Assembly (NCBI GenBank): GCA_019912545.1
Contig: JAIOIK010000013.1
Location: forward strand, 1 to 42,650
Direction of reading: 5' to 3'
Source: Ignavibacteria bacterium
GTDB lineage: Bacteria; Bacteroidota; Ignavibacteria; Tepidaquicellales; OLB5
Length of the DNA: 42,650 bases
Both the position numbers and the translations under genes were made by a program. Shown here in pieces: positions 6,431-22,695 of the stretch. The notes beneath the pieces were generated by a model. That model did not search any database. It saw only the letters and a program-made list of their open reading frames with translations, and was not told the DNA's origin. Position 1 is the stretch's first letter, and the number at the start of each line of letters is the position of its first letter.

Positions 6431-6739
6431 ATGAATGAAAAAATAAAAAGTATTATTGAAGCTAACCTTAAAGGCTACGGACTTGAAAAGATAATCCTTT
6501 TCGGTTCCAGGGCAAGGGGTGATGGAGATGCCGATAGTGATTATGATATTCTGGCTATCATAAAAGAAGAACTTGACTGGACGCTAAGAGAAAATATTTG
6601 TTCAAAGATCAGGAAAGATATGGCTAAGCTCGATATAAATGTTGACATTTTAGTCAGGTCCGAAAAATATATTGGAGAAGCCAGGTTTGAAGAAGGAAAT
6701 GTCATTCATGAGGCAATTGAAGAAGGAACAGAAATATGA
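6431..6739 (+). CDS. MNT-type nucleotidyltransferase antitoxin
   Basis: A 102-residue minimal nucleotidyltransferase. The catalytic pattern is intact: G25-S-R-A-R-G30, D37 and D39 in SDYD, and D72 in VDILV, which coordinate the metal ions in this superfamily. Known MntA proteins neutralise their HEPN toxin partners by adding AMP. The stop overlaps the start of the following HEPN gene as ATGA (6736-6739), the usual layout of a translationally coupled antitoxin-toxin pair. Assignment as antitoxin rests on this pairing and family knowledge. Confidence 0.85.
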   Translation: MNEKIKSIIEANLKGYGLEKIILFGSRARGDGDADSDYDILAIIKEELDWTLRENICSKIRKDMAKLDINVDILVRSEKYIGEARFEEGNVIHEAIEEGTEI

Positions 6740-7149
6740 ATGACGGCCGGGTAGAAAAATGGCTGATATCTGCAAACAACGATTTTATTGCGGCGGGAAA
6801 TCTTTTGTTTGTAACCAAGGAAAAGATTGTAACTAATGTAATTTGTTATTTGTGCCAGCAATCCGCAGAGAAGTTCCTTAAAGCATACCTGCTGAATAAT
6901 AGAGAACCATTTCCTAGAACACATAACCTTGAATTATTAATCGAGAAATACAGGAAAGCAGATCAGACATTTCCCGATTTGGATATAGGCAGACTTACAT
7001 CATATAATATTTCTATGAGATACCCCGATGAATTCAGAATTCCAACACTTGAAGAAGCTCAGGTAAGCTATGAAACTTCAAGAATTGTACGGGGCGAGAT
7101 CTTGCTTAGGTTAAAGATCGCTGAAAATGAAATCACGTTGTTTAATTAA
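6736..7149 (+). CDS. HEPN-domain toxin, probable RNase
   Basis: A 137-residue all-helical protein. WLISANNDFIAAGNLL and CYLCQQSAEKFLKAYLL match the two conserved helices of the HEPN fold (Pfam HEPN, with the AxxDL and QQxAEKxLKA features). R56..H63 (REPFPRTH) fits the Rx4-6H ribonuclease motif. No Tyr immediately follows the His as in the HepT toxins whose Tyr is AMP-modified, so neutralisation may differ. It directly follows the MNT gene with a 4-base overlap, and 20 bases later lies ppx. Probable role: RNase toxin of a MNT/HEPN module. Confidence 0.83.
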   Translation: MNDGRVEKWLISANNDFIAAGNLLFVTKEKIVTNVICYLCQQSAEKFLKAYLLNNREPFPRTHNLELLIEKYRKADQTFPDLDIGRLTSYNISMRYPDEFRIPTLEEAQVSYETSRIVRGEILLRLKIAENEITLFN

Positions 7150-13966: not shown

Positions 13967-14470
13967 ATGAATAAAACAGAGCATTATATAAGCATACTGG
14001 CCCTTGAAAAACATCCTGAAGGCGGGTGGTTTAAAGAGGTTTACAGGTCAAATGAGCTGATCAAAGCGGAGCACCTGCCGGCAAGATTCAACGGACACAG
14101 GTACCACTCAACTTCGATTTACTTTCTTTTGACAGGAGATACGTTTTCTGCGTTGCACAGAATTAAATCCGATGAGCTCTGGCATTTTTATGACGGGTCA
14201 CCGGTAACAATACATATGATAGACGAGAAAGGAAATTATTCAACTGTTCGGCTGGGGCGGGATGTTGAGCAGGGCGAAGTTTTTCAATTCGCGGTACCTG
14301 CGGGAGCGTGGTTTGGTGCAACTGTTGATGATGCTGATTCATTTACACTTGTTGGCTGTACTGTCGCGCCGGGGTTTCATTTTGATGATTTTGAGTTAGC
14401 AAATCGTGATAGGCTTATGAAGCGTTTTCCGCAGCATAAAGAGGTCATTGGGAGATTGACGAGAATTTAA
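13967..14470 (+). CDS. DUF985-type cupin protein
   Basis: A 167-residue cupin. EGGWFKEVYRS and the block RYHSTSIYFLLTGDTFSALH, then DELWHFYDGSP, are hallmarks of the cupin_5/DUF985 family, whose conserved histidines suggest a small-molecule or metal site. The exact reaction is not known. The leader is A-rich with no Shine-Dalgarno sequence. It is convergent with the GNAT-nitrilase gene. Confidence 0.85.
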   Translation: MNKTEHYISILALEKHPEGGWFKEVYRSNELIKAEHLPARFNGHRYHSTSIYFLLTGDTFSALHRIKSDELWHFYDGSPVTIHMIDEKGNYSTVRLGRDVEQGEVFQFAVPAGAWFGATVDDADSFTLVGCTVAPGFHFDDFELANRDRLMKRFPQHKEVIGRLTRI

Positions 14471-14524
14471 CAAAAAAAGTTTAATGCGGCTGAGCAAAAC
14501 AAGTTATTTCAGCCGTATTAAACT
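14471..14524. terminator. Terminator between convergent genes
   Basis: agtttaatgcggctga (14478-14493) and tcagccgtattaaact (14509-14524) pair over 15 of 16 positions around a 15-base loop. A run of seven A (14472-14478) on the left supplies a T-run for the minus strand, so the hairpin should end transcription of the GNAT-nitrilase gene and may also stop the cupin transcript. Confidence 0.75.
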
Positions 14525-14554: not shown

Positions 14555-16114
14555 TTACATTTCCAGATTCTTTTCATCTTCTTTGAAATGAATTGAATAG
14601 AGATCTTTTCTTCTATCCTGCCAATTAAGAACGCTGCCAAGTTTTTGCTGACGTTTTATAAGGTTTACATCAAGATCATGAAAGATAAGTGTTTCAATAT
14701 TTGGCGAACATTCAGCCGCAATGCCGTCTCTTTCAAACGGAATATCTGAGGGTGTTAGAATTGCTGATTGAGCATAATGTATATCCAGGTTTTCAACCGC
14801 AGGGATATTTCCCACACAGCCTGCAATAACTGTATAAACCTGGTTTTCAACACATCTTGCGTGCGCGCAATACCTTACTCTTAAATAGGCTGATCTTTCA
14901 TCGGTATTAAAAGGTACAAAAATTATGTTCGCTCCCTTTTCAACAGCTATTCTGGATAGTTCAGGGAATTCAATATCATAACAAATTAATATCGCAATTT
15001 TACCTTTATCCGTATCAAAAACTTCTACTTTGTTACCGGGTTTAACGCCCCACCATTTACGCTCACTTGGAGTTATATGAATTTTATACTGTTTGCCGAT
15101 TGTTCCGTCACGTCTGAAGAGATAAGAAATATTAAAAAGATCATTTCCTTCAAGTGTAAAGTGTGAACCGCCGATTATATTAATATTATATTTTATAGCA
15201 AGTTTTGTAAAGACCTGGAGATATTTAGGGGTATATTCAGAAAGTCTCCGCATAGCTATTCCGGGGCGTTCGGGTTTCATAAACGAAAGGAGCTGAGTTG
15301 TAAACATTTCCGGGAATAAAATGAAATCGCACCTGTAATCAGAGGCTACATCAATGAAATACTCACAATATTTTGCGAAATCTTTAAAATCTTTTAATTG
15401 ACGCATAAGATATTGTATAGCGCAAACCCTTACATACTCAGGTTTATTGCTGAATGACTTTGATGAATGAGGATCGTAATCAATGTTAGTCCACTCAAGA
15501 TAAGTCGCATATCCCATAGATTCCTTATCTGATGGCAGGTAATCAGGGATAAGTCTTATAAGAACAAAGTTGTTCGAGATTTGCGGAGTCAGAACAGGAT
15601 CAATCAGCTCTTTAGAAACAACTTTTTCAATATACTCTCTGGCGCTCATTTTTGAGGAGTGTCTTGCGTACCCGGGAATTCTCCCTCCAATAACAATCCT
15701 TTTTAAATTGAAACTACGGGCGATCTTCTTTCTTTCATTGTATAGCCTTCTTGAAAGTTTCAGTCCCCTGAAATCAGGGGACGTCATAATTTCTATACCG
15801 TACAGGGTATCTCCATTTACATCGTGATTGGTAATGAATCCACCATTGGTGATTTCGTTCCAGTTATGAACAGAAGAATACTCATCAAAATTAAGGATCA
15901 TGCAGGAAGCAGAAGCAATGATCTTTCCGTCATATTCAACGCATACCTGCCCTTCGGGAAACACCGTAACAAGACTTTTGAATTGTTCGGGTGACCATGG
16001 TTTCATTTTAGGGAAACACTTCTTTTGCAGAAACGTTATGGCTTCATAATCCTTAATTTCAAGGAGTCTTATCTTCAGTTTTTTTTCGAACTGTTTCAGG
16101 TTTAATTCACTCAT
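14555..16114 (-). CDS. GNAT acetyltransferase fused to carbon-nitrogen hydrolase
   Basis: A 519-residue fusion. The N-terminal about 200 residues are a GNAT domain (IRLLEIKDYEAITFLQKKCFP; FRGLKLSRRLYNERKKIA as acetyl-CoA loop). The C-terminal half is a nitrilase/CN-hydrolase with the triad Glu in LFPEMF, Lys in KQYKIHITPSE and Cys in ILICYDIEFPE. Both parts look intact. This architecture is a known but uncharacterised class. AGGGAG about eight bases before the ATG supports the start. It starts 17 bases after the Balon-like gene on the same strand, so both are likely cotranscribed. Confidence 0.88.
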   Translation of the reverse strand: MSELNLKQFEKKLKIRLLEIKDYEAITFLQKKCFPKMKPWSPEQFKSLVTVFPEGQVCVEYDGKIIASASCMILNFDEYSSVHNWNEITNGGFITNHDVNGDTLYGIEIMTSPDFRGLKLSRRLYNERKKIARSFNLKRIVIGGRIPGYARHSSKMSAREYIEKVVSKELIDPVLTPQISNNFVLIRLIPDYLPSDKESMGYATYLEWTNIDYDPHSSKSFSNKPEYVRVCAIQYLMRQLKDFKDFAKYCEYFIDVASDYRCDFILFPEMFTTQLLSFMKPERPGIAMRRLSEYTPKYLQVFTKLAIKYNINIIGGSHFTLEGNDLFNISYLFRRDGTIGKQYKIHITPSERKWWGVKPGNKVEVFDTDKGKIAILICYDIEFPELSRIAVEKGANIIFVPFNTDERSAYLRVRYCAHARCVENQVYTVIAGCVGNIPAVENLDIHYAQSAILTPSDIPFERDGIAAECSPNIETLIFHDLDVNLIKRQQKLGSVLNWQDRRKDLYSIHFKEDEKNLEM

Positions 16115-16131
16115 GGATCATCTCCCTATGG

Positions 16132-17211
16132 TTAGTATCTTAATATCATGGCGATTCTGCCATATTTTTCAAGTGAATTATTATCAAAGAATACAACATT
16201 ACCGCCTTTAGAAACAACACTTTCAATCAGTTCATCAATAATGTCTTCTGTTCCGCCTTCTACAAACTTTTCGGTCATCTCAACATGATTATCTTTGATA
16301 ATTCCGGAAACAGCAAAATTAATTTCAACCAGCAAAATCAAACCCCGGCCCTCATTTGCCAGATTCCATATTTCCTGTATGCCAGCAGCAAATTTTTTCG
16401 CGCTTACGGCAGTATCAATTTTTTTGATTACTTCATTTCTAATTTCAGCAAAACCTTTCTTGGCTTCAGGCCAAATTATCTTAGAAAGTTCCGAGGGTGA
16501 AGAAAAACCGTAGTTCCCTGTAATCTCGGCTATTACCTGAATATTTGAGGCGCAAATTTCTCTGAAAAAAGATACTTGTTTTTCTGTACCGCAAATCACA
16601 ACAGATGCCGGGTTACCGTTGTTTAATTCTTTCAGAATTTTCATGGTATCCCGCAGATGATTTTTAAGTCGTTCTTCGTTTTCCCTGATTCTATCATTGA
16701 AGGAAGCATCAGGAAAATTTCCATCTTTAATATCGTGGACTATGTTTTTAAGAGGAAGTAATTTATGAACCGCTTCTTTAACTTTTTCTCTTTCACAATT
16801 AAATATACGCGTATTTTTATCATCTAATACCACGGCGAAATACGGCTGCGTTCTGTTGAGTCCGAAAATAAGGTCGCGGGTAATAAAATTAGCATCAATA
16901 ATAACTCTTTCTTTAACCGGAAAACTGAATGTAAATTTATAATAACTATCGCTGCTGATAAAAACAGCAAGCCCATCTTCGAGATGATTAATATCGATCT
17001 CATCATTAAGACTGTTAAGTTTCTTGATTACTGACTTAGTATCATGGTTGCTGAAATCCTTTTTCAATTTATCAATTGCTTCATTGATAAGATTTTTGAG
17101 TCTGATCTTATCCTGCAAATTATCAGGAAAATTCCGGTGGGTTGGCATAAGTAAAGAAATACTGGGAGTTGATTTATGTGTTTGGAGTTGATTCAGTATG
17201 ATCCTGTTCAT
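16132..17211 (-). CDS. Balon/baeRF-type ribosome-binding factor
   Basis: A 359-residue protein resembling the bacterial archaeo-eukaryotic release-factor family (baeRF; Balon of Psychrobacter is a characterised member that binds the ribosomal A site in cold-shocked or dormant cells). The opening STPSISLLMPTHRNFPDN, the KIRLKNLINEAIDKL helix, the strand FAVVLDDKNTRIF and the C-terminal RIAMILRY fit that three-domain layout, as far as I can judge by eye. AAAGGA about nine bases before the ATG supports the start. It is divergent from a universal stress protein and leads the GNAT-nitrilase gene. Family assignment is by recollection of the pattern and should be taken as likely but not certain. Confidence 0.7.
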   Translation of the reverse strand: MNRIILNQLQTHKSTPSISLLMPTHRNFPDNLQDKIRLKNLINEAIDKLKKDFSNHDTKSVIKKLNSLNDEIDINHLEDGLAVFISSDSYYKFTFSFPVKERVIIDANFITRDLIFGLNRTQPYFAVVLDDKNTRIFNCEREKVKEAVHKLLPLKNIVHDIKDGNFPDASFNDRIRENEERLKNHLRDTMKILKELNNGNPASVVICGTEKQVSFFREICASNIQVIAEITGNYGFSSPSELSKIIWPEAKKGFAEIRNEVIKKIDTAVSAKKFAAGIQEIWNLANEGRGLILLVEINFAVSGIIKDNHVEMTEKFVEGGTEDIIDELIESVVSKGGNVVFFDNNSLEKYGRIAMILRY

Positions 17212-17324
17212 TGTTGAATCCTTTCAGAATTTAAATAAAATTAATAATGGAATTACATAATTTTATGGTGCTTAATTTCAATAAATTTATGATTATTTTT
17301 AAGCAACAAAATGTATTCAGTAAA

Positions 17325-18185
17325 ATGAAAAAAATAAAAACAATAGTAGTGCCGTTAGATTTTTCTTATTCTTCTTTTGAGGCTGTTAAATATGCTTCAT
17401 TTTTCGCCAAAGCCCATAATTCCAGAATACATCTTATAAACATAATACCCGGGTTAAATTATTTCTATGCATATCCTGACGCCGGTGTAACTTCTGCGCA
17501 TGTAATTGGCATGCATAGAAAAATGATGGATGAAATGAAGGAAAATAATTTAAAAAGATTGAAATATACAGAAAATACGAGATTTTTAAAAAACCTACAA
17601 GTCAATAGTACGGTGCTGGCGGGTACCGATATTTATTCGGATATAATCAGTTTTGCTGAAAGCAAAAATGCTGATCTTATAGTAATGGGAACAAAAGGAA
17701 CTACTTCATTTAAGAAAGCATTTTTAGGATCTAAAACAGAACGGTTAATAAGATTTACAAATATACCTGTCTTAGCAATCAGAGGCAAGATCGGAGTTCC
17801 GAAAATAAAAAAAGTGGTATTTGCTTCAGACTTTACAACTGAAAGTTATGCTGTATATCCAACCCTGAATAATTTAGTTAAAGAGCTTAACCCTGTAATT
17901 CATTTATTAAAAATTAATACAAAAAACCAATTCAGATCGTTTAAAAATAATAAGAGCGATCTGGATAAATTTGCAAAGAGATTTACCGGGAAATTTGTAC
18001 CTCATGTCAGGGCAAATTATGAGATTGATGAAGGAATCGTGAATTTCGCCAGATTAAATAAGGTAGATCTAATAGCCATTGGTTTGAGAAGAAAAAAGGG
18101 ACCGAGAAGAATATTGGGTAACAGAATTGCAGAAGGCATAATCAGGCTGACAGGATTACCTGTTCTGGCAATTGATATACCCTGA
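17325..18185 (+). CDS. Tandem universal stress protein (two UspA domains)
   Basis: A 286-residue protein with two UspA folds. The first starts IKTIVVPLDFSYSS and holds IVMGTKGTTSFKKAFLGSKTE, the GxxGx8-9GS ATP-binding pattern; the second starts IKKVVFASDFT and ends GLRRKKGPRRILGNRIAEG, a less complete version. Usp proteins act in stress and energy limitation. The ATG at 17325 fits the family start; the earlier ATG (17247) would add 26 odd residues. It is divergent from the Balon-like gene, so they may share control sequences. Confidence 0.9.
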   Translation: MKKIKTIVVPLDFSYSSFEAVKYASFFAKAHNSRIHLINIIPGLNYFYAYPDAGVTSAHVIGMHRKMMDEMKENNLKRLKYTENTRFLKNLQVNSTVLAGTDIYSDIISFAESKNADLIVMGTKGTTSFKKAFLGSKTERLIRFTNIPVLAIRGKIGVPKIKKVVFASDFTTESYAVYPTLNNLVKELNPVIHLLKINTKNQFRSFKNNKSDLDKFAKRFTGKFVPHVRANYEIDEGIVNFARLNKVDLIAIGLRRKKGPRRILGNRIAEGIIRLTGLPVLAIDIP

Positions 18186-18203: not shown

Positions 18204-19568
18204 TTATTTTATTATTATTGTGTCAGATTTGTATTTATCCTTAAGAATTTTTTCGATTTCCTTGATGTTTGTTCTTTTGATTTTCCCTGTAATTTTATTG
18301 TTCCATTTTATTGTAAAAATGGGAATAGTATTAATTTTCAGCGAATCAGAAAAATTGTTTTCAATTGACTTTTCGAATTTAATGTTTTCAATTTCCGGGT
18401 AAATTTTCTTTAATTCCGCGGCTGTTTGAGAAAAGATGACTGAATCACGTGTGTAATAATTCAGCTTGCTCTCAAGCTGTTCGGTTCGTTTTATATTTTC
18501 ATCAAGCCTTTTGCCGAGTTCAGCAAGTTCTATAACCGTATTTCTTGTTTCTTCACCGTCGTGTTCATCCACTAACCCCACCTGTATGATACTTAATTTC
18601 ATATCACTTAGCCCAAATGAAGACATCTGAGATCTTAAAGAATCAAGTTTAAGAGAATCAAGCTGTTCACCTGCCAGAAGTATTTTCAAAGTCGTTGAAT
18701 CGCCTTTTCGGATAGAATTCCATCTTAATACGTTCGTTTTATCTGAAGCAACTTTCCTGTTTATAAAAATACTGATCTTCGCGTTCGTTCTTGCTTCGAT
18801 AATAATTCCATAAAAAATATATATACTTGGAACAGTAATAATCAGAACAAGCACCATAACTACGTAGCGCAATCTTCTTTTTGTAATGGAATTAGGATAA
18901 ACCTTATAAGGAAACTTCAGGAACCTGACAATGAAATATACTGAAAGACTTATAAATACGGCGTTAATAAAGAAGAGATAAATTGCACCGAAAAATATAT
19001 GCCCGTTTCCGCTGGCGATCCCGAAACCTGCCGAACATATCGGGGGCATTAAAGCAGTTGCAATAGCTACGCCCGGAATAGCATTTGCAGCTTTTGACCT
19101 GGACCCGGCTACAATTCCGGCTATACCCCCGAAAAATGCGACACCAACATCTAGCAGTGTTGGATTTGTTCTTGCAAGTATCTCGGTCGTGGGACTGCCA
19201 AGCGGAGAAACCAGAAAATATACCGTACTGGTAAACACACTTAATGCAACCGCTATTGAGAACTCTCTTACCGAAAAAAGAATTGTTTCTTTATCATGAA
19301 TGCCGAAGGCAAGCCCAATTCCCAGAATTGGCGACATAAGCGGTGATATCAACATTGCGCCGATAATTATAGCAGGCGAGTTTACGTCAAGCCCAATTGA
19401 AGCAAGCAAAGCAGAACAGATCAGGTACCAAAGGTTGGCGCCGCGCATAGGAATAGCAGCTTTGATAGATGAAACAGTGTTGACTTTATCAGTATCAGAT
19501 TTCAGGTCAAAATATTCCCGAAACTTCACAATAAATCTTAATAATTTATTATTCAAAGGTTTCTTCAT
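18204..19568 (-). CDS. DUF389 family membrane protein
   Basis: A 454-residue protein. The first half has the DUF389 pattern: IPMRGANLWYLICSALLASIGLDVNSPAIIIGAMLISPLMSPILGIG, SAIVAGSRSKAANAIPGVAIATALMPP and several membrane segments. The second half is soluble and partly coiled-coil (ELAELGKRLDENIKRTEQLESK). The family is seen widely but its function is not known. Gene ends 19 bases from the Usp stop, convergent. Confidence 0.88.
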   Translation of the reverse strand: MKKPLNNKLLRFIVKFREYFDLKSDTDKVNTVSSIKAAIPMRGANLWYLICSALLASIGLDVNSPAIIIGAMLISPLMSPILGIGLAFGIHDKETILFSVREFSIAVALSVFTSTVYFLVSPLGSPTTEILARTNPTLLDVGVAFFGGIAGIVAGSRSKAANAIPGVAIATALMPPICSAGFGIASGNGHIFFGAIYLFFINAVFISLSVYFIVRFLKFPYKVYPNSITKRRLRYVVMVLVLIITVPSIYIFYGIIIEARTNAKISIFINRKVASDKTNVLRWNSIRKGDSTTLKILLAGEQLDSLKLDSLRSQMSSFGLSDMKLSIIQVGLVDEHDGEETRNTVIELAELGKRLDENIKRTEQLESKLNYYTRDSVIFSQTAAELKKIYPEIENIKFEKSIENNFSDSLKINTIPIFTIKWNNKITGKIKRTNIKEIEKILKDKYKSDTIIIK

Positions 19569-19605
19569 TCACAGCATTATCCAATCTAATATTACAAAAA
19601 TAATA

Positions 19606-20865
19606 TTATTTCATGACTTTAATACCACACATCAGCCCGTGTCCAATACCTTCAGCTTCTGAATATGACATTTCAATATTTCTCAGTATCATTGCAACCT
19701 GCGGTCCGATCACACTTGCCCAGAAATCTGCAACAGGAAACCTGTCTGAATTCCGGAATAACCATGCAAGAAACTTAAAATCATCCTCCATATGCTCAAT
19801 CTCTTCACTCTCAATAAATGCGGAGATCTTTGTATCTTTGTGATTAAGCAAAGCTTCAAGGAAATATATTACCCTGTTCCAGCTGTTCTTGTAAGTTACC
19901 AGCTTATTCCAAAAGGTTGAATTTTCCGGAACATATTTTTCAAGGTATTCAAGGTTTAACTTTAGATGTTTAGGCTCCCCGCGGTAACCATGATCTATAA
20001 GCCTGTTTACCTGGTAGCGCAACTGAGTAATTAAAGGGCTTAAGAGTCCGGTATCCATATGCCTGCCAACGAAGATGCTTCTATCGTGCATATAGCATAT
20101 TTCAATTTCGCGGTTAACACTTTTTGCAGCGCGCTCAATTCTCATTTTCAGATCTGCGGGTTTCCAATAACATATATTAAACCACTCTATTTTATTCTTT
20201 TCTCTTATATCTTTATTGTAAAGATATGCCATTGAATACGGCAATAATTCTTTTTCAACTTTCCAATGAACCGGCCACTCAGGTGAAAATTTACCGTGCA
20301 CATCAAAAATAAACACAGAATCTTTTTGTGCATGAGAAAATATCTGCCGAAACAGTGATTCCAGTGAATCTGGTGTAAGATGTGAAAGTGCGCTATATGA
20401 TGAAAAATAAATATTAAAGGGTTCGTGGTTTAGTATTGCCGGAGGCAGGCCTTCTTCCAGGTTTGCATATTCAAATTTGAAATTGTTTTTGCCCCTGTAA
20501 TTTGCCCTGCCCTGTGTTATCATTGAAGGGCTGATATCCAGTCCGTAATATTCGCGGATCTTAATCGGCAGAAGAATGAAGTTTTTATTTACCATTTCTT
20601 TGGGATTTGAAGGCGGTATATGTGTTAAAAGTTCAATACCCTCACCACTCCCGCAACCCAGATCAAGTATAGTAATCTTTGAGTGTTGATTTAAGAAATC
20701 CTCTATAAAGGGTCTGCAATAAGTTTTAAGCACCATATCTTCCCAGAATTTTCTAACATTATCTTTTTTCCCAAAAAGACTTGCTTCTTCATTCCCGTAA
20801 AAACCCATAGAGACAGCCGTTTCATAAAACTCTGTCCGGTTTTGTTTTATTTTAATTTTCGACAT
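19606..20865 (-). CDS. Class I SAM-dependent methyltransferase
   Basis: A 419-residue protein with motif I ITILDLGCGSGEG near residue 65, and YYGLDISPSMI (motif II acidic loop) followed by YANLEEGLPP. The C-terminal half (from about residue 210) is a separate helical region without a known motif. AGGAGA, the complement of 20873-20878, lies eight bases upstream of ATG 20865, so this start is preferred to the longer frame from 20898. Substrate unknown. Confidence 0.85.
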   Translation of the reverse strand: MSKIKIKQNRTEFYETAVSMGFYGNEEASLFGKKDNVRKFWEDMVLKTYCRPFIEDFLNQHSKITILDLGCGSGEGIELLTHIPPSNPKEMVNKNFILLPIKIREYYGLDISPSMITQGRANYRGKNNFKFEYANLEEGLPPAILNHEPFNIYFSSYSALSHLTPDSLESLFRQIFSHAQKDSVFIFDVHGKFSPEWPVHWKVEKELLPYSMAYLYNKDIREKNKIEWFNICYWKPADLKMRIERAAKSVNREIEICYMHDRSIFVGRHMDTGLLSPLITQLRYQVNRLIDHGYRGEPKHLKLNLEYLEKYVPENSTFWNKLVTYKNSWNRVIYFLEALLNHKDTKISAFIESEEIEHMEDDFKFLAWLFRNSDRFPVADFWASVIGPQVAMILRNIEMSYSEAEGIGHGLMCGIKVMK

Positions 20866-21043
20866 AACAAAATCTCCTGTATAGAAAGTTAAGCTCAATA
20901 ATTTAATCTATAAAGGTTTGGATTTTTACAATGTAAAATTATCCAAGATAATTACAAGGTAAATTGACCAATAATACATTCAAATGTAAAGTAAATAACC
21001 GCCAAGCAATAGTTAAATCGGGAATATTTATATTCTTTAAATA

Positions 21044-22279
21044 TCATATAAATACTTTTGAAACAATTTTTTTAAGCGTTAAGCCCTGAACAACTATAGT
21101 AAAAATTACAACAATGTATGTAAGATATATAAAAAGATCTCTATCCATAGCACTGCTAAGAGAAAGCGCCATTGCAAGGGAAAGCCCCCCTCTTAATCCC
21201 GCCCAAACCAATACAGCTACAGTTTTTTGAGGTATTTTCTCTTTTAAAGGGATGATAAAAGAGGGAATTGTTATCGATAGCCAGCGGCTTACGATAATTA
21301 TCAGCACAACGGCAACAGAAATCATAAGAAAGTTTTCCGGGGGATGAATAATTAATATTTCAAGACCTATCCAAACGAATAACACAGCATTTAGTATTTC
21401 ATCGATTAGTTCCCAGAATTTTTCCAGGTATTCCTGTGTTTGCTTAGACCAGCCATCCTTTTTACTCAAATTTCCGATCAGCAGACCACTAACAACCATC
21501 GCCAATGGTCCGGATACATGCAGAAACTGGGCAATTGAAAATCCTCCCATAACAATTGCTAATGTAATAAGTACTTCAACCTTATATGAATTAATCCTTT
21601 TAAGCATAAGGTAACCGCCGTATCCAATTGCCGCACCGAATAAGACACCCCCTAATGCTTCCCTGAGAAACATCAAAATAGTTGAAGAAACGCTGAAGTC
21701 AACCTGAGAAAAAGCAGCTATTTGATATAGCGAAGCGAACACAACTACAGCTATTCCGTCATTGAACAGAGACTCTCCTGATATTTTCATTTCTAATGAA
21801 CGGGGAAGTTTTGTTTCTTTTAAAACACCCAATACTGCGATAGGATCTGTGGGCGATATCAGCGCTCCGAATAAGAGACAATTTATATATGAAATGTTAA
21901 ATCCAATTAGCAGAAAAGTATAGTAAATAAGTGTACCTATAATAAATGTGGAAAGAATAATTCCAATTGTCGAAAACACAAGAATAGGTCCTTTCTGAGG
22001 CAAGAGATCATCGAGTGGAATATGAATAGCTGCCGCAAAAAGCATAAAACTAATCATTCCTCCCATCAAAGCATTATTGAAATCTACAGAATTTACAACT
22101 ACAGAAATCTCCTTTAAAAATGTAAAGCCAAAAAAATTAAGAATTAAAACAATGAATGATATAAACATTGATGCAAGCAATAATCCGATTGCAGAAGGAA
22201 GCTTAATAAATTTGTGATTAATAAACGCAAGGATTGCGGTTAAAGTAATTAAAGCCGCAATTAGTTCATATATATTCAT
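21044..22279 (-). CDS. CPA1-type sodium/proton antiporter
   Basis: A 411-residue transporter with about twelve hydrophobic segments. ALISPTDPIAVLGVLKE and GESLFNDGIAVVVF are the cation-binding and unwound-helix motifs of the CPA1/NhaP family, and LRGGLSLAMALSL is the late conserved segment. It exchanges Na+ or K+ for H+ across the inner membrane. An ATG at 22318 could add 13 residues, but a strong palindrome lies just five bases upstream of it and the shorter start gives a more normal first helix. Confidence 0.9.
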   Translation of the reverse strand: MNIYELIAALITLTAILAFINHKFIKLPSAIGLLLASMFISFIVLILNFFGFTFLKEISVVVNSVDFNNALMGGMISFMLFAAAIHIPLDDLLPQKGPILVFSTIGIILSTFIIGTLIYYTFLLIGFNISYINCLLFGALISPTDPIAVLGVLKETKLPRSLEMKISGESLFNDGIAVVVFASLYQIAAFSQVDFSVSSTILMFLREALGGVLFGAAIGYGGYLMLKRINSYKVEVLITLAIVMGGFSIAQFLHVSGPLAMVVSGLLIGNLSKKDGWSKQTQEYLEKFWELIDEILNAVLFVWIGLEILIIHPPENFLMISVAVVLIIIVSRWLSITIPSFIIPLKEKIPQKTVAVLVWAGLRGGLSLAMALSLSSAMDRDLFIYLTYIVVIFTIVVQGLTLKKIVSKVFI

Positions 22280-22322
22280 ACTGCCTAAAAATTTATCATA
22301 AAATATCAAAACCCGCATAATA

Positions 22323-22397: not shown

Positions 22398-22405
22398 TAT
22401 ATTTG
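22398..22405 (+). promoter_or_regulatory. Possible -7 element for small membrane-protein gene
   Basis: TATATTTG fits the TAnnTTTG -7 element known for Bacteroidota promoters, 20 bases before the ATG at 22426. No clear -33 element was found at the right distance. Confidence 0.3.
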
Positions 22406-22425: not shown

Positions 22426-22695
22426 ATGATAGAAACCTGGATACTGGTTGTAACTTTGTTTTTACCGAGAATTGCATTATTGATAGCTTATTTTTCTCAC
22501 CACATACCTGCCAATAATATTCCGTTCATTGGCGATATACTATTATATATATTCCTGCCGCGGCTGCTGATGATCATCTATATTTATGATAATATGGGCT
22601 GGGAGAATCCGTGGTTCTGGATACACATTGTAGTGGCAATAATAGTATGGTCGAAAGGCTCGCATGAAACATATAAGAGGAAGTTCAGGAAATAA
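22426..22695 (+). CDS. Small membrane protein, unknown function
   Basis: An 89-residue protein with three hydrophobic segments (WILVVTLFLPRIALLIAYF, FIGDILLYIFLPRLLMIIYIY, WIHIVVAIIVW) and a basic C-terminus (KRKFRK). I do not recognise a family. It is divergent from the antiporter gene and is followed at once by a good terminator, which supports that it is a real transcription unit. Confidence 0.6.
   Translation: MIETWILVVTLFLPRIALLIAYFSHHIPANNIPFIGDILLYIFLPRLLMIIYIYDNMGWENPWFWIHIVVAIIVWSKGSHETYKRKFRK

Follow-up and report, generated by a model that had tools for sequence, protein, structure and literature searches.

Within a 42,650-nucleotide stretch of an Ignavibacteria genome (the window), we identified a homologue of the ribosome hibernation factor Balon encoded next to an ATP-binding universal stress protein (Usp). 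We consider it likely that this Balon-type factor and its Usp partner belong to an optional cassette, and that species have exchanged the Balon-Usp pair through homologous recombination. The novelty lies in the optional cassette and in the replacement of the pair in place; the protein itself adds a new member to a known family, in a new and mobile context. Balon is a recently described protein that occupies the ribosomal A site of idle bacterial ribosomes under stress and does not possess the GGQ and NIKS motifs (PMC10901736).

The Balon homologue and its two partners

An earlier, sequence-only reading of this DNA had proposed a Balon-like gene, divergent from a tandem Usp and cotranscribed with a GNAT-nitrilase fusion. 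The gene in question (16132 to 17211, minus strand; single copy in the genome) encodes 359 aa. Its middle domain matches baeRF_family3 (PF18845, E 6.8e-26, 92.1 bits, above the curated cut-off of 31.5), and the NCBIfam Balon model NF052287 matches it over the full length (312.4 bits, E 5e-93) but misses the curated equivalog cut-off of 330 by 18 bits. On these profile scores, we withhold the strict "equivalog" label and keep the family membership. Orthologues from the same order lie on both sides of this cut-off, with that of G015 passing (357.8 bits) and that of G009 falling 0.4 below. A phmmer comparison with the solved Balon structure 8rd8_B aligned the two proteins end to end (E 1.7e-30; residues 5-359 to 4-369), so that the sequence alignment covers the complete three-domain architecture. 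The PDB entry of 8rd8_B carries the molecule name "Methyl-accepting chemotaxis protein".

We searched the 359-aa protein for GGQ and NIKS strings and found neither, as in Balon. At the position of the decoding-centre HP motif it reads THRNFP, where the proline and the following QD are kept and the histidine is changed to phenylalanine. The histidine position is variable among 67 homologues, and most close relatives in the same order have a phenylalanine there. An AlphaFold model built from only three sequences reached a pLDDT of 33, too low to extend the sequence evidence. The nearest named records are from Ignavibacteria/Chlorobi metagenome-assembled genomes, and RaiA/HPF is encoded elsewhere in the same genome (G000:C14:13054-13329). 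The searches place the protein inside the baeRF/Balon group, far beyond chance, rather than outside the baeRF clan, and we take it, as judged from sequence, to be a real full-length Balon homologue of baeRF family 3.

Downstream of Balon on the minus strand lies the GNAT acetyltransferase-nitrilase fusion (GNATnit; 14555 to 16114, 519 aa; PF00583, E 4.9e-6; PF00795, E 1.5e-28). Its Glu-Lys-Cys nitrilase triad (E269-K344-C378) is intact and is invariant among 16 homologues. Only 17 nt separate the Balon stop from the GNATnit start, which is preceded by a good ribosome-binding site (AGGGAGATGATCC-ATG). GNATnit is followed by a hairpin and a T-run (14478 to 14524, minus strand; -24.7 kcal/mol, z -5.9), a likely terminator that would also mark the left edge of the cassette; this terminator-like hairpin is found in the four genomes that carry the cassette and has no counterpart at the empty sites in G001 and G004. 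Because of the short gap and the hairpin and T-run after GNATnit in the carriers, the two genes very probably form one transcript, and the proposed cotranscription is well supported.

The tandem Usp gene runs in the opposite direction. Its open reading frame opens at 17247 (312 aa), and PF00582 matches the protein in two stretches (E 2.3e-31). The ATP-binding motif GX2GX9GS is present in the first domain (residues 122-136), and the copy in the second domain is degenerate. The true start is probably at 17325 (MKKIKTIVVPLDF) rather than at 17247, because homology in the carriers begins there and the ATGAAA at this position is a conserved start in 4/4 carriers; the gene would then span 17325 to 18185 on the plus strand and encode 286 aa. 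Coordinates and PF00582 bear out the divergent arrangement, with this correction of the start. The intergenic region common to Balon and Usp (17212 to 17324) therefore measures 113 bp and not 35 bp. In the Usp gene of G003 (L020 9270-9368), the last 33 residues lie in another frame past an A-run, which points to a frameshift or a sequencing error.

Alignment of the four carriers revealed a 16-bp element (17268 to 17283) in this region that is kept in 4/4 carriers despite the divergence of the genes. A regulon search with RTGCTTWAWTTMAATW across this genome returned this element as the sole match; as the element was defined from the four carrier sequences, the informative part of this result is its absence from the rest of the genome only. 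No wider regulon is visible, since the element has no other match in this genome. The Bacteroidota -7 motif TAnnTTTG was also sought in the Balon-Usp gap of the window and is absent there.

An optional cassette at a variable site

To describe the distribution of the three genes, we compared genomes at several taxonomic ranks. Balon has a match in 12/44 genomes of the order and in 4/13 of the genus. Full-length GNATnit occurs in exactly the same four genus genomes (that of the window, G003, G009, and G012), as does a close orthologue of the window Usp (at least 66% identity, vs at most 37% for other Usps). GNATnit, Balon, and Usp stand in one identical order in all four carriers, and the other nine genus genomes are without all three. 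The chance of two independent genes picking the same 4/13 genomes is 0.0014, with kinship ignored.

The site of the cassette is bounded by resident genes, a Cupin_5 gene on the left (cupin5; 13967 to 14470, plus strand), which also stands beside s89 in genomes without Balon, and an 89-aa gene on the right (s89; 22426 to 22695, plus strand), which is found in 14/15 genomes of the family. Where the cassette is missing and the site can be read, cupin5 and s89 lie 61 bp apart in G001 and 155 bp apart in G004, and G007 has a somewhat longer gap. Other genomes hold different genes there: a ParE-type toxin-antitoxin pair in G002 (L105 1383-1941, by Pfam) and in G008 (L104 8584-9112, by resemblance), both without Balon, and a 252-aa protein in G005. 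The sister-genus genome G013 carries only Balon within the same DoxX-s89 interval. Hence, GNATnit-Balon-Usp is an optional cassette of one Ignavibacteria genus, and the cupin is part of the site rather than of the cassette. The carriers are few (four genomes), and the joint gain of the three genes could go back to a single ancestral event, with later losses in other genomes.

Three further genes lie between Usp and s89, all on the minus strand. A DUF389 membrane protein (18204 to 19568; PF04087, E 1.3e-40) and a class I methyltransferase (19606 to 20898; PF13847, E 1.7e-10; 91% aa identity to G009) are optional cassette genes in 2/4 carriers, with DUF389 present in G009 and absent from G003 and G012. 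The Na+/H+ exchanger (21044 to 22318; PF00999, E 4.1e-59) is found only in this carrier and has no match in the other three carrier loci. The DUF389, cupin, and antiporter genes were thus correctly recognized from the sequence, and the stress regulon into which they had been drawn stands in part: GNATnit, Balon, and Usp are linked, in one genus only, whereas DUF389 is shared by 2/4 carriers, the antiporter is confined to 1/4, and the cupin is a gene of the site. A wider regulon was not borne out, as the promoter element does not recur in this genome.

Rfam and tRNA scans of the window gave no hits; the cassette site is thus not marked by a tRNA. Defence-system models matched none of Balon, GNATnit, Usp, and DUF389. 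For the methyltransferase there was a weak PADLOC hit (mads_2, E 1.9e-7), confined to the methyltransferase domain, which probably reflects just a common fold. We also recorded three features of the surroundings. The sequence TATATTTG at 22398-22405 is a Bacteroidota -7 promoter motif 28 bp ahead of s89, and much the same sequence is present in most relatives. The cupin5-s89 gap of G007 (L107) contains, by eye, REP-like palindromes of the CCAGCGGAGGCTGGTATCCAG type, and similar translated repeats occur at 195-422 of the window. At 6431-7149 of the window, adjoining small open reading frames resemble, by eye only, a minimal nucleotidyltransferase and HEPN, a known toxin-antitoxin arrangement.

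Beyond the genus, the linkage fails. Among 296 genomes of the phylum, Balon is present in 76, the GNAT-nitrilase fusion in 84, and both in 19 (Fisher p 0.56), i.e., their co-occurrence is at chance level; adjacency of the two genes in this sample is seen only in its two genus members. A tandem Usp, sought with a profile built in the analysis, was found within ~6 kb of none of 48 other Balon loci, where a divergent single-domain Usp could escape the profile. A Pfam tally of 119 proteins neighbouring Balon contained peroxiredoxin (3), RtcB (2), and DnaJ (2); the 25 commonest neighbour families listed, each with at least 2 members, do not include Usp. Outside the genus, Balon does not regularly have Usp or GNATnit as a neighbour.

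Probable exchange of the Balon-Usp pair between species

Pairwise identity along the locus changes in steps. Between the window and G009 it is 83-90% over most of GNATnit, drops to ~60% just inside Balon, and stays at 54-71% across Usp. For G003 compared with G012, identity is 86-98% over Balon-Usp, from the first 270 bp of GNATnit on, vs 76-86% in the flanks. At fourfold sites, the same two genomes agree at 77-87% in Balon and Usp vs 41-53% in p10504, DoxX, cupin5, and s89. The gene trees conflict in a corresponding manner. In the Balon tree, the window groups with G003 and G012, and a grouping with G009 is rejected (AU p 3.5e-5); in the GNATnit tree, the window groups with G009, and a grouping with G003 and G012 is rejected (AU p 0.0096). 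The Usp tree is not decisive by itself. Fast evolution or unequal rates of Balon alone, considered in place of recombination, is rejected by both AU tests. An assembly mix-up is unlikely because the carriers are separate assemblies, with G009 in two contigs. As we read these alignments, the tree conflict and the identity steps are explained by two or more exchanges that have a boundary at the GNATnit/Balon junction or close to it. On the other side of Usp, DUF389 and the methyltransferase (18204-20898) have 79% and 83% DNA identity to G009 vs ~70% for several flanking genes, and these two genes look recently shared between the window and G009 lineages too.

Could the three genes simply be chance neighbours, kept in order as genes of close species generally are, without being a unit of function or of transfer? 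Conservation of the flank genes and the heterogeneous neighbours of Balon elsewhere would fit, but relatives retain the flanks while being without all three genes together, and the tree conflict and the sharp identity steps at gene boundaries speak against such an origin, which we regard as improbable. A functional three-gene stress pathway, in which GNATnit modifies a ribosomal or metabolic substrate in dormancy, would account for the all-or-none presence in the genus, the common transcript of Balon and GNATnit, and the identical gene order in 4/4 carriers. Nevertheless, Balon and GNATnit meet in no more of the 296 phylum genomes than expected by chance and lie side by side in the genus alone, and the GNATnit tree differs from the Balon tree; we think such a pathway unlikely.

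The activity of the protein itself might also differ, with a kept or altered release-factor or ribosome-rescue function that frees stalled ribosomes instead of storing them. The baeRF-1 clade was first proposed for rescue, and some families keep the catalytic glutamine (PMC6514570). The window protein, however, is without GGQ, and its best match is to family 3 and the Balon subfamily, whose characterised member is without peptide release (PMC10901736); rescue is therefore very unlikely in our judgement.

We favour a hibernation factor in an exchangeable pair, and suggest that it would act as follows. Upon an energy drop, the Balon homologue would enter the ribosomal A site, where its N-terminal domain would touch the decoding centre and its GGQ-less middle domain the peptidyl-transferase centre. 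Held on the ribosome with EF-Tu(GDP), it would render ribosomes inert and protected. RaiA/HPF, which in Psychrobacter urativorans is bound alongside Balon (PMC10901736), could occupy the same ribosome. Balon and the ATP-binding Usp use one short control region and are probably induced together, presumably by stress. GNAT-nitrilase would be a carry-on, a putative amidase/acyltransferase on the same transcript and no general partner of Balon. The three-gene cassette would be gained or lost as a whole at a single site of the chromosome, with Balon and Usp exchanged as a pair between species via homologous recombination. A bolder generalization, which we consider doubtful, is that hibernation factors can act as accessory, allele-swapping genes, and that Balon, the divergent Usp, and their common promoter make up a recombining module replaced in place. 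Selection for different Balon-Usp alleles could perhaps come from differences in ribosome-targeting attackers or in dormancy regimes.

Comparison with known systems

These results extend Balon to uncultured Ignavibacteria, a little-studied group; our literature search on ribosome hibernation in Ignavibacteria found incidental co-mention only. Balon is optional in the genus: at a site that is otherwise conserved, the majority of close relatives do without it. Should Balon and Usp indeed be exchanged as one unit, dormancy capacity could be acquired or re-tuned through recombination. In the papers that we consulted, we found no account of Balon being exchanged along with a divergent partner gene.

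The window protein resembles Balon of P. urativorans (AOC03_06830; PDB 8rd8, 8rdv, and 8rdw) in its length, end-to-end alignment, absence of GGQ and NIKS, and the HP proline and QD. It differs in having a phenylalanine for the HP histidine, and its gene has Usp and GNAT-nitrilase as neighbours, not RaiA. Stress genes beside Balon are a published rule, with RaiA, Hsp20, DnaJ, RtcB, and others as neighbours (PMC10901736). Stress-operon Balons elsewhere likewise keep the company of stress genes, and DnaJ, RtcB, and peroxiredoxin neighbours recur in our phylum sample; unlike in the window, neither Usp nor GNAT-nitrilase is named among the published neighbours (PMC10901736).

The mycobacterial homologues Msmeg1130 and Rv2629 are likewise Balon-type A-site factors (PMC10901736), from which the window protein is distant (29.6 bits with the MSMEG_1130 model vs a cut-off of 480). 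In M. tuberculosis, the DosR block Rv2623-Rv2631, for which no GNAT-nitrilase is named, contains Rv2629 together with the Usps Rv2623 and Rv2624c (PMC5309233). By their numbering, several genes separate Rv2623/Rv2624c from Rv2629, so they do not form an adjacent divergent pair as in the window. Nevertheless, since Rv2629 and these Usps lie in one DosR block, there is a precedent for a Balon gene in the vicinity of Usp genes (PMC5309233).
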